Assembly (NCBI GenBank): GCA_009377635.1
Contig: WHTR01000011.1
Coordinates: 1-48,166, forward strand
DNA length: 48,166 bases
Direction: 5' to 3'
DNA from: Chloroflexota bacterium
Lineage (GTDB): Bacteria > Chloroflexota > UBA6077 > SHYK01
A program made the translations under genes and the position numbers. A model generated the notes under the pieces. That model worked only from the letters and a program-made list of their open reading frames with translations, made no database searches and was not told where the DNA came from. Shown here one piece after another: positions 18,251 to 21,852 of this stretch (positions are counted from its first letter, which is position 1; each line of letters starts with the position of its first letter).

Positions 18251-19312
18251 TCACCTCGCAGCCAGGCGCACCAACTCGATGGCGATATCGCCCATCAGCT
18301 CCAGTGAATCCGATTGCACGTTTTCGGCGACGTCAAACGCCGTATGGTACTGGGGATCATCGACCCAATGCAACATAATGGCTGGTAGCCCGGCGTCCAA
18401 GAACGAGGCGTGGTCACTCATCCGCCGCAAGTACGATGATAGATTGGCTGGCCGGTAGCCCTCCGCCCCGGCATGGGCGGTCGCCTCCATCACCCACGCC
18501 TCAGACCCGCCGAACGCTGGCTGCGCGCCGACGGAGATCATGTCGATGCTCATCGCAAGCGTGAAGCGGCGTCGGTCGGCGTCGGACAGATCCCGCACGT
18601 ACTCCTTGCTGCCCAAGAGGCCGATCTCCTCAGCGCCGAACGCCACGAAGCGGACCGCCACATCCGGGATGGGGGTCCACGCCAGCTCCCGCGCAACCTC
18701 AACCATTGTAGCCGTGCCGGACGCATTGTCGTTGGCGCCGGGGCCGGCGGGAACCGAGTCGTAGTGGGCACCGACGACGACCAGGGGCGCAGATCGTTCC
18801 TCCTCCGGATCGCTCGCCACGACGTTCTGGCTCGTTCCGGATCCCGCCCGGACCGCGTACTGGAAGGGCTTCACATCTACCGCGTATCCCATGGCCGTCA
18901 GCTCCTCGGCCAGGAACCCGGCAGCTTGCCGCTCCGCCGTAGTGCCCGCGGGGCGGCTGCCGATCTTGTCGGCCAGCGACCGGACCAGACGCATTGCCCG
19001 ATCGCGCAGCGGCGGTGGCGGCGCAACCTGTTCCGTCGGCTCGGGGAGTGGCGTCGGCGACGCCTCAAGGAGCTCCTGGAACCCACCGCTGGACGCGACT
19101 CCTGGTGTGACCCCAACGCTCGTCGGTGCAGCGGTCAGGTCCGCAACAGGTGAGCCGCCCGACCGCTCGGAATCTGCCGCTCGGACGCACGCGCTGGTCA
19201 CGATCATGACCAGGCCCAGCAGAAGCATGGCTGGAACCCAGCGGCGCGCGGACTGCTGCCTTGTCCGGCACCGGGCAGGACACGGTCCTCGCGCCTGAAA
19301 GGAGAGGTTCAC
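18251..19312 (-). CDS. M28-family metallopeptidase, predicted lipoprotein
   Basis: 353 residues. The N-terminus has a basic stretch, a hydrophobic core (MLLLGLVMIVTSAC) and a probable lipobox with Cys42, so the mature protein should be anchored on the outer face of the membrane. A Pro/Ser-rich linker leads to the M28 domain with the zinc ligands in VVGAHYDSV, GANDNASG and AFGAEEIGLLGS, and a late His in LHWVDDPQYHTAFD. This points to an aminopeptidase-like enzyme, substrate unknown. The start is GTG 19312, overlapping the folD stop by four bases. Confidence 0.9.
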   Translation of the reverse strand: MNLSFQARGPCPARCRTRQQSARRWVPAMLLLGLVMIVTSACVRAADSERSGGSPVADLTAAPTSVGVTPGVASSGGFQELLEASPTPLPEPTEQVAPPPPLRDRAMRLVRSLADKIGSRPAGTTAERQAAGFLAEELTAMGYAVDVKPFQYAVRAGSGTSQNVVASDPEEERSAPLVVVGAHYDSVPAGPGANDNASGTATMVEVARELAWTPIPDVAVRFVAFGAEEIGLLGSKEYVRDLSDADRRRFTLAMSIDMISVGAQPAFGGSEAWVMEATAHAGAEGYRPANLSSYLRRMSDHASFLDAGLPAIMLHWVDDPQYHTAFDVAENVQSDSLELMGDIAIELVRLAAR

Positions 19313-20163
19313 GACCGGTTCTCGACCGCGCGCCGGAAGAGGAGCAACGTGTTGCGGAGCAGCATCGCAGTGGTCACCGGGCCGGTGCCGCCCGGGACGG
19401 GCGTCAGCAGTCCCGCACGGTCCGCGGCGTCGGGCTGCACGTCTCCGACGGTCTTTCCGTCAACAACGTTGGTGCCGAAGTCGATGACCGCCGCGCCAGG
19501 ACGGATCATGGCGCCTGTCACCAGCCCTGGGCGACCAGCCGCCACGGCGAGGATGTCGGCCTCCCGGGTGAGTGCATCAAGTGCCCGCGTCCGGCTGTGG
19601 CACATGGTGACGGTCGCGTCGTGCTGGAGAAGCAGCGACGCCATGGGGCGCCCGACTTCGACGCTTCGCCCGACGACGACCGCCCGAGCCCCAGCGATCT
19701 CCACGCGGTGGTGGAGGAGGATCTCCAGCCCACCGAGCGGCGTCGCAGGGACGATCGACGGCCGGCCCTGAGCCAGACGGCCGGCGTTCAGTGGGTGGAT
19801 CCCGTCGACGTCCTTGGCCGGGTCCAACTCTTCGAGGAGTGACTCGAGCGACACCTGCGCAGGCAGGGGAGTCTGGATCTGGATGGCATGGATAGCCGAG
19901 TCGCCGCTGAGCTGACGAACGAGCGCCGCGGCTTCGTCCGGCGCGGTTGTGGACGGGCAAACGTGGAGGCGGACGTCAACTCCTGCCTCTGTAAACGCCC
20001 GCTGGAGGTGACGCGTGTAGACGGTCGCGCTCGCCTCCTCGGTGATCTGGACAATCGCAGCCCCGGGCGGGACACCGGAGTTGGAAGTCAGTGCCCTAAA
20101 CTCGTGAGCCGACTCCTCCCGAATCACTCGGGCGAGCGTGTTTCCGTTGACGATTATCGCCAA
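19309..20163 (-). CDS. folD: FolD-type methylene-THF dehydrogenase, catalytic Lys replaced
   Basis: 284 residues of the FolD family, which normally carries both NADP-dependent methylene-THF dehydrogenase and methenyl-THF cyclohydrolase activities. Family motifs are DPAKDVDGIHPLN, PATPLGGLEIL, VVGRSVEVGRPM, TVTMCHSRT and TPVPGGTGPVTTAML. In the active-site motif Y-x-x-x-K the Tyr (Y49) is kept but the Lys is L53 (codon CTC at 20005-20007). This Lys is essential for the cyclohydrolase step in studied homologues, so the protein may only be a dehydrogenase. An FchA-like cyclohydrolase gene lies two genes upstream. The start is TTG 20163 with GGGGGA upstream. Confidence 0.9.
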   Translation of the reverse strand: MAIIVNGNTLARVIREESAHEFRALTSNSGVPPGAAIVQITEEASATVYTRHLQRAFTEAGVDVRLHVCPSTTAPDEAAALVRQLSGDSAIHAIQIQTPLPAQVSLESLLEELDPAKDVDGIHPLNAGRLAQGRPSIVPATPLGGLEILLHHRVEIAGARAVVVGRSVEVGRPMASLLLQHDATVTMCHSRTRALDALTREADILAVAAGRPGLVTGAMIRPGAAVIDFGTNVVDGKTVGDVQPDAADRAGLLTPVPGGTGPVTTAMLLRNTLLLFRRAVENRS

Positions 20164-20251
20164 TCAGGCATCCCCCAGGGACTGTCGGGGATCAGGATTC
20201 GGCCTCTGCCGCGCCTGTCTCGATAGCAGGGCTGAACGGTGATGCCTCACA

Positions 20252-21091
20252 TCATGCGGAAAGGATCAACACGCCGGAGCGGATGAGGCTGAGACCGACG
20301 ATCCCGACGCCGATCGCCAACAGGCGGATTATAACTGTGTGCGACACGCGGCTGGAGAGACGGGCGCCGAGCTGTGCGCCGACGATCGCGCCCACCGCGA
20401 GAAACATGATGCGCTCGGCCCCGAAGTCGAAGTCGCCAGCCACCGCGTGCGTGACGGTGCCTGTGCCTGACGCGATGGTGAGAACGAAGGTCGAGGTGGC
20501 CGTAGCGATATGGACCGGGAAGTGCAAGAACAGGACGATCGCTGGCACCATGATCGGACCCGCGCCGATTCCGGCCAGGGAGGAGATGATGCCCCCCGCG
20601 AGGCCGACGGCCAGGGCCCGCCACCAGAGAAACGCGTATGCGTACGTGCGACCGAGAGCATCGGTCAGCGTGCGGTACACCGACCCGGAGCTCGGCGCGA
20701 GCGGCGCCGCCGGTAGCCGCCTCGGCAACAGCAGATAGGCGGTTAGGGCCAGAATCAGGAATCCGAACCCGAGGTCGAACCACCCGCGCGGCAGCAGACG
20801 CGTCGCCCACGCGCCGACGACCGCTCCGGGAACGGCCGCCGTCGCCAGAATGACACCGGAGCGGACGTCGATGCGCCGAAGGCGCGAGTACGCGACGGAC
20901 CCGGAGAGTCCGCTGAGAAAGACGACGGCCAGCGAGATCGTGGTGATAACGCGAGGGCTTTCGGTTGGCTCCAGCAGCAGCAGGGCGGGCACGAGGAGGA
21001 AGCCGCCCCCAGCCCCGATGAGGTTCCCGTAAGCGGCGACGAGCATGCCGAGCAGCACCAGAAAGGGAGCGCTCGACGCGTCAATCGACAT
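20252..21091 (-). CDS. TauE/SafE-family membrane transporter
   Basis: 279 residues with about eight membrane segments and the two family half-repeats, each containing a glycine-rich signature (NLIGAGGGFLLVPALLLL near the N-terminus and GIISSLAGIGAGPIMVP in the second half). Members move organic or inorganic sulfur anions or other small anions. The substrate cannot be read from the sequence. ATG 21091 (MSIDASSAP) is preferred because the homology begins there, but no Shine-Dalgarno is seen. It lies between the fchA-like gene and folD. Confidence 0.88.
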   Translation of the reverse strand: MSIDASSAPFLVLLGMLVAAYGNLIGAGGGFLLVPALLLLEPTESPRVITTISLAVVFLSGLSGSVAYSRLRRIDVRSGVILATAAVPGAVVGAWATRLLPRGWFDLGFGFLILALTAYLLLPRRLPAAPLAPSSGSVYRTLTDALGRTYAYAFLWWRALAVGLAGGIISSLAGIGAGPIMVPAIVLFLHFPVHIATATSTFVLTIASGTGTVTHAVAGDFDFGAERIMFLAVGAIVGAQLGARLSSRVSHTVIIRLLAIGVGIVGLSLIRSGVLILSA

Positions 21092-21167
21092 CGCAACCGC
21101 TGGGTCGAGAACCCGAACGCGCGACCGAGAAGCACAGAAGTCGTCGGGATCGACCGGGGAGCGCCAC

Positions 21168-21803
21168 CTATGCTCTCCGGGACCGGGTCTGAACGAGCTG
21201 AAGCGCGCGCGCGGCGACATCGTCGGCCCCCGCCAGCGCGCCTGCGAGGCGTGCGCGCATCGACGCAGCGAATGCGGCCTCTGTCACCTGCTGCAGGTTC
21301 AAGCCGGCCTGGTCGGCGGCCCCGCGAGCAGCGGCGAGGGCGAGGTGGGCAGCCACGGCGACATCCCCGAGGAGAGCGACGTTCGTCGTCCCAGCGGCCC
21401 GGAGCGCCAGGTCGAGCACCGCACGGCTCGTCTCCGCTCCCTCTACCGGGACCTCGGTTGCCCGATGCATTGCGGCCTCAATGCTCCGGTCGCGGGCAGC
21501 ACGTTCCACGTCGCTCGACCGTGGGAGCCGATACGCATCGCGAACGGCGAGGTAGGCGTCCGCATCCGTGTCGGCCAATTCGAGCAGCCGCTGTCGCAGC
21601 AGAGCGGTGTCGGCGAGGATCGTCTGCACATCGGCCTCAATCGCGGCGTAGCGCGGGCGTCCGACCGTCAGATTGCAGGTCATGGCGAGCATAGCAGCGG
21701 CCATGGCACCTGCGAGTGCGGCCAGGCTCCCGCCTCCGGGCGTCGGGTCGGAGGAGGCAAGGCGGGCGAGGTATTCCTCAATGGTGAGCGATACGAGCGA
21801 CAT
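21168..21803 (-). CDS. fchA: FTCD cyclodeaminase-family protein, likely methenyl-THF cyclohydrolase
   Basis: 211-residue all-helical protein of the formiminotransferase-cyclodeaminase family. The N-terminal SSDPTPGGGSLAALAGAMAAA is the folate-binding signature. A middle segment has RYAAIEADVQ and DADAYLAVRDAY, and the C-terminal NVALLGDVAVAAHLA is also typical. Stand-alone members of this length in acetogens and methylotrophs act as methenyl-THF cyclohydrolase (FchA). This fits with the FolD two genes downstream, which has lost the cyclohydrolase lysine. The start is ATG 21803 or GTG 21812. Divergent from murI. Cyclodeaminase activity on formimino-THF is a second possibility. Confidence 0.85.
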   Translation of the reverse strand: MSLVSLTIEEYLARLASSDPTPGGGSLAALAGAMAAAMLAMTCNLTVGRPRYAAIEADVQTILADTALLRQRLLELADTDADAYLAVRDAYRLPRSSDVERAARDRSIEAAMHRATEVPVEGAETSRAVLDLALRAAGTTNVALLGDVAVAAHLALAAARGAADQAGLNLQQVTEAAFAASMRARLAGALAGADDVAARALQLVQTRSRRA

Positions 21804-21852
21804 TGCAGGCACATTCTAACCGGCCAGGGCGGGCGCCCGTGCGCCTAGCTCC

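Follow-up and report, generated by a model that had tools for sequence, protein, structure and literature searches.

The separation of the two FolD reactions onto two proteins has precedents. Clostridium perfringens reportedly has a FolD that acts as a dehydrogenase only and a separate FchA that supplies the cyclohydrolase, a split that is said to have been shown biochemically (Aluri et al. 2016, Microbiology 162:145). Gene clusters of acetogens that carry both fchA and folD have also been described (PMC3584212). Lys56 and Gln100 of the human enzyme are described as acting together, Lys56 possibly moving the proton in the hydrolysis (PMC3368264). A simulation of human MTHFD2, in turn, found no unambiguous catalytic role of the lysine in the cyclohydrolase step and assigned it a role in binding in the dehydrogenase step (PMC9173628). 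Here, we describe a folate gene pair on a stretch of 48,166 nucleotides from a Chloroflexota bacterium (contig WHTR01000011.1), which we term the window. The relevant features are the following.

18251 to 19312, minus strand: M28 peptidase (PF04389), sharing 4 bases with the end of folD.
19309 to 20163, minus strand: folD without the lysine (Leu at the E. coli K54 position), encoding a probable monofunctional NADP-dependent methylene-THF dehydrogenase (PF00763 and PF02882).
20005 to 20007, minus strand: codon CTC for Leu53, where bifunctional FolDs have the catalytic lysine, read directly and aligned to E. coli FolD.
20252 to 21091, minus strand: TauE/SafE-family permease between fchA and folD (PF01925, 144.5 bits); the reading frame is open from 21220, the start at 21091 being likelier.
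21168 to 21803, minus strand: fchA-like stand-alone FTCD_C gene, encoding a probable methenyl-THF cyclohydrolase (PF04961; nearest solved structure FchA, 7vg4); ATG start, with an alternative GTG start at 21812.

We propose, with a probability of roughly 0.8, that the window encodes a dehydrogenase-only FolD and an FchA cyclohydrolase, and that the two belong to an ancient, mostly adjacent gene pair of the phylum that is equivalent to the clostridial FolD/FchA pair. The window FolD would oxidize methylene-THF to methenyl-THF with NADP, and the replacement of Lys54 (E. coli numbering) by Leu would have cost it efficient cyclohydrolase activity. The stand-alone FTCD_C protein encoded two genes upstream would then hydrolyze methenyl-THF to 10-formyl-THF. 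Both enzymatic activities are predicted from sequence, on the basis of the observed residues, the co-occurrence and adjacency of the genes and the lack of a detectable Fhs.

The window FolD is a protein of 284 amino acids, read on the minus strand from a TTG start at 20163 to the stop at 19309, and it matches both Pfam profiles of a full-length FolD (PF02882 with 188.4 bits, PF00763 with 77.3 bits). Its YxxxK motif reads Y-T-R-H-L (codons TAC ACG CGT CAC CTC), so that the catalytic lysine of bifunctional FolD enzymes is a leucine here. Alignment with 1b0a and with relatives places Y, L, Q, D and G at the positions of E. coli Y50, K54, Q98, D121 and G122, and the NADP-binding motif is intact in the translation (VVVGRSVEVGRP, CHSRT). 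The original prediction that the lysine is gone while the other motifs are kept was therefore correct on both counts. A sequencing error is not the cause, since all other FolDs of the class also lack the lysine. No second FolD was detected in the genome, an assembly of 343 contigs that is 84% complete.

The original prediction had also placed a stand-alone gene of FchA length two genes upstream of folD on the same strand, and the PF04961 match (168.9 bits) and the coordinates agree with it. The protein has 214 amino acids, in line with the approximately 210 of a stand-alone FchA, and it is encoded by the only FTCD_C gene detected in this 84% complete genome. Its best match in the PDB is the Methylobacterium FchA 7vg4 (E 1.8e-36), followed by the weaker matches mammalian FTCD (E 6.9e-18) and 1o5h (E 1.1e-12). 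It scores 162.5 bits against the NCBIfam FchA equivalog NF045657, below the cut-off of 275 bits, and the FchA of Acetoanaerobium, which comes from an fhs cluster, likewise stays under this cut-off with 179.6 bits. In a tree of FTCD_C proteins fchA-type and hut-type sequences are intermixed with weak support, so that FchA proteins and cyclodeaminases are not cleanly separated. Promoter and terminator scans found nothing. The M28 peptidase belongs to the same gene run but probably has no share in the folate function.

A scan for relatives gave three, from a "Chloroflexi bacterium" (51%), an Acidobacteria contig (43%) and a member of the Thermomicrobiales (40%); the FolD on the Acidobacteria contig carries the lysine. 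Within the class, every FolD recovered from the 29 genomes has Ile, Leu or Val at the lysine position, bar an extra copy in genome G016 with Gln there, and a stand-alone FTCD_C gene lies directly before folD in most of these genomes. For the phylum, 251 genomes with a completeness of 80% or more were searched for the FolD and FTCD_C families, the FolD regions were read, and residue 54 and the neighboring gene were scored for 228 FolDs from 213 genomes. The lysine is present in 73 of the 228 FolDs and absent from 155. As the original prediction had anticipated, loss of the lysine and presence of fchA go together: stand-alone FTCD_C is found in 134 of the 142 genomes with a lysine-less FolD (Ile, Leu or Val) and in 1 of the 71 with a lysine-bearing one. 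The gene is adjacent to folD in 111 of the lysine-less genomes, lies elsewhere in 23 and was not found in 8, while fchA adjacent to a lysine-bearing FolD was not found in any of the 213 genomes. The window pair falls on the side of a lysine-less FolD with a stand-alone FchA, as in the clostridial type. The odds ratio of the association is extreme and Fisher's exact test gives p 7e-46, a raw value that ignores kinship. The two genes are also tightly packed, with a median intergenic distance of -21 bases in 93 measured pairs. Only the window pair is separated by a gap of about 1 kb, filled by the tauE-like gene, which would have come between fchA and folD in this genome.

The exceptions to this pattern are few. 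Leu-bearing relatives without fchA, the case that would speak against a division of labor, come down to the 8 of 142 lysine-less genomes without an FTCD_C match. Four of these belong to family f49 and are probable fusions (see below). In the other four (G021, G054, G233, G240) the assemblies are incomplete or only a second FolD-like copy was read, and fchA may have been missed. On the lysine-bearing side, the single well-scoring stand-alone FTCD_C is that of G188, where the gene precedes an aminotransferase-like gene. In 41 of the remaining genomes no FTCD_C was found, 18 have a fused FtcD and 9 a divergent FTCD_C or a match below the cut-off. The last two (G126 and G076, with genomes of 1.4-1.5 Mb) carry tandem folD copies, of which one has Lys54 and the other Ile; Fhs is present and FTCD_C was not found in either, and dehydrogenase and cyclohydrolase are perhaps split between the tandem paralogues. 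In G139 the FolD keeps Lys54 but has Glu for Gln98 and Ala for Gly122, and FTCD_C lies in an open frame of 634 codons.

The remaining active site residues of the 111 FolDs with an adjacent fchA are informative as well. Tyr50 is kept in 110 and Asp121 in 103, the other 8 having Glu, and this retention indicates that the folate dehydrogenase site is retained. Gln98 is relaxed, with 75 of 111 keeping it versus 72 of 73 lysine-bearing FolDs, as would be expected if the hydrolytic step were no longer under selection. The number of underlying evolutionary events is small. In a tree of 228 FolD sequences, for which the trait column was masked, 3 changes suffice to explain the lysine trait, and a tree of 73 sequences with outgroups requires 5; many independent losses are rejected on these counts. 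The raw association is thus not made up of many independent events, and the phylogenetic pair test (2 pairs agree, 0 disagree) has at most 3 informative pairs and therefore no power. Judged from these trees, the lysine-less FolD with fchA is essentially one large, ancient linked group in the phylum, plus a few other events. The original prediction had described a bifunctional enzyme that became a pure dehydrogenase and handed the second step to FchA. The division of labor fits all the genomic evidence; the direction, a loss from a bifunctional ancestor in this lineage, does not follow from the tree, which is unrooted. The further idea of a subfunctionalization within the gene run of the window has to be given up, as the pair is ancient and phylum-wide rather than local.

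Fhs was not detected in the window genome (84% complete) or in its four family members, and FolD with a cyclohydrolase is thus the likely route to 10-formyl-THF, although at this completeness the absence of Fhs or of a second FolD is not certain. A lysine-less FolD without Fhs needs a cyclohydrolase, and this bears on the view that the FTCD_C protein is instead the cyclodeaminase of histidine breakdown, converting formimino-THF to methenyl-THF together with a stand-alone formiminotransferase and lying near folD because of the shared product. We consider this unlikely. Cyclodeaminases of hut operons do share the Pfam family, and the window genome does contain a separate formiminotransferase gene (FTCD_N), on another contig (C11, position 30706), so that the window protein might serve histidine breakdown as well. 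Furthermore, six genomes of this order have their sole closely matching FTCD_C gene divergently next to FTCD_N and not beside folD; the FolDs there still lack the lysine. However, nine genomes of the class keep FTCD_C beside folD although no formiminotransferase was found in them. Histidine breakdown therefore does not explain the pairing, and we reject it as the sole role of FTCD_C in the clade. The nearest solved structure is moreover an FchA. The two roles are also not exclusive, and in the six genomes with the divergent pair a dual role of one FTCD_C protein is likely.

It is more improbable still that FolD remains bifunctional, with another residue or water substituting for the lysine and FchA being redundant or otherwise employed. 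The MTHFD2 simulation cited above leaves the catalytic role of the lysine ambiguous and thereby gives some room to this idea. Against it, almost no lysine-less FolD is found without an FTCD_C partner or fusion, 70 of the 71 genomes with a lysine-bearing FolD have no stand-alone partner, and Q98 is relaxed only in the lysine-less group. We give hardly any credence to the view that the lysine-less FolD is a diverged paralogue without folate dehydrogenase activity. Some related genomes (G100, G128, G170, G177, G219, G247) do have a second FolD-like copy in which Leu stands in place of Q98, and seven loci carry such a paralogue with no fchA beside it. In the window genome, however, no other FolD was found, and its copy keeps Y50, Q98, D121 and the NADP motif and groups with the main fchA-linked sequences. 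A dehydrogenase-only FolD paired with FchA thus remains our preferred reading.

The most novel result of the analysis concerns family f49. In its four genomes without an FTCD_C match the only FolD-like gene is longer than usual. A search of the order found a long FolD-like protein of about 420 amino acids in 16 of 18 f49 genomes, 60-95% identical, with two of the 16 copies split or cut by contig ends (example: locus L312, 1501-2757, minus strand). The first four examined have Phe, Leu, Val, Glu and Ala at the positions of Y50, K54, Q98, D121 and G122. The C-terminal part of about 150 amino acids is not recognised by Pfam, but an FchA profile scores it at 25-40 bits, and none of 3,200 shuffled versions of the same letters exceeded 17. 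Since a model of the full-length protein gave only FolD matches among the 50 matches listed, this part was folded alone, using f49 sequences only (pLDDT 83). By TM-score it most resembles FchA 7vg4, with 0.74 relative to the query and a Foldseek probability of 1.00, although E is 0.14. Neither Fhs in five f49 members tested nor a separate FTCD_C in the members tested was detected. The PGGG motif of the FchA-like domain is altered, as is the FolD active site. From profile and model we regard f49 as a probable lysine-less FolD fused at its C-terminal end to a shortened FchA domain, and this probable fusion replaces the reading of f49 as a lysine-less FolD without any cyclohydrolase, which we reject. 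We would put at slightly below even odds that the protein, if functional, is a bifunctional enzyme rebuilt by joining the two separated enzymes, its folate active site being replaced for the most part. If true, split activities would here have been rejoined in nature.

For annotation, dehydrogenase-only and bifunctional FolD can be told apart throughout the phylum by one residue together with the presence of a stand-alone fchA, yet the NCBIfam models that match these proteins carry the name "bifunctional". Genomes of the window's kind, in which no Fhs was detected, are predicted to rely on FchA for their 10-formyl-THF and, through it, for purines and formyl-methionine.

With the bifunctional FolDs of E. 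coli and the human MTHFD1 DC domain the window FolD shares two domains and Y50, Q98 and D121; these enzymes have the YxxxK lysine where the window protein has Leu. FtcD (1tt9) has a C-terminal domain of the same Pfam family as FchA, but the window protein is stand-alone, with the formiminotransferase on a different contig and neither fused nor adjacent. Methylorubrum/Methylobacterium extorquens likewise combines a cyclohydrolase-less dehydrogenase with FchA (7vg4, the closest to the window FchA), but this dehydrogenase is MtdA and not FolD as in the window. In Methylobacterium bullatum the open reading frame directly before fchA gives a weak FolD profile match of 21 bits. In other phyla, Fusobacterium vincentii has a FolD that, compared by eye with the E. 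coli protein, carries Gln at 54 and Asn at 98, and an FTCD_C gene that adjoins a formiminotransferase-like open reading frame. Acetoanaerobium noterae, a relative of the clostridia, has fhs and fchA in a row and a FolD in which, by the same comparison, the lysine is also replaced (Ala at 54, with Arg at 98). Both species thus show the pairing seen in the window, but their FolDs fall on the lysine side of the tree, outside the big lysine-less group, with moderate support, which suggests separate losses of the lysine. The closest parallel is the split reported for Clostridium perfringens, again a dehydrogenase-only FolD and a separate FchA. The window differs in having Leu where Acetoanaerobium has Ala, no detected Fhs, no acetogen-type cluster and a tauE-like gene between the two genes, and its activities are predicted. 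The arrangement is old and lineage-wide; it was not invented in the window genome, and it is of a kind already known in clostridia.
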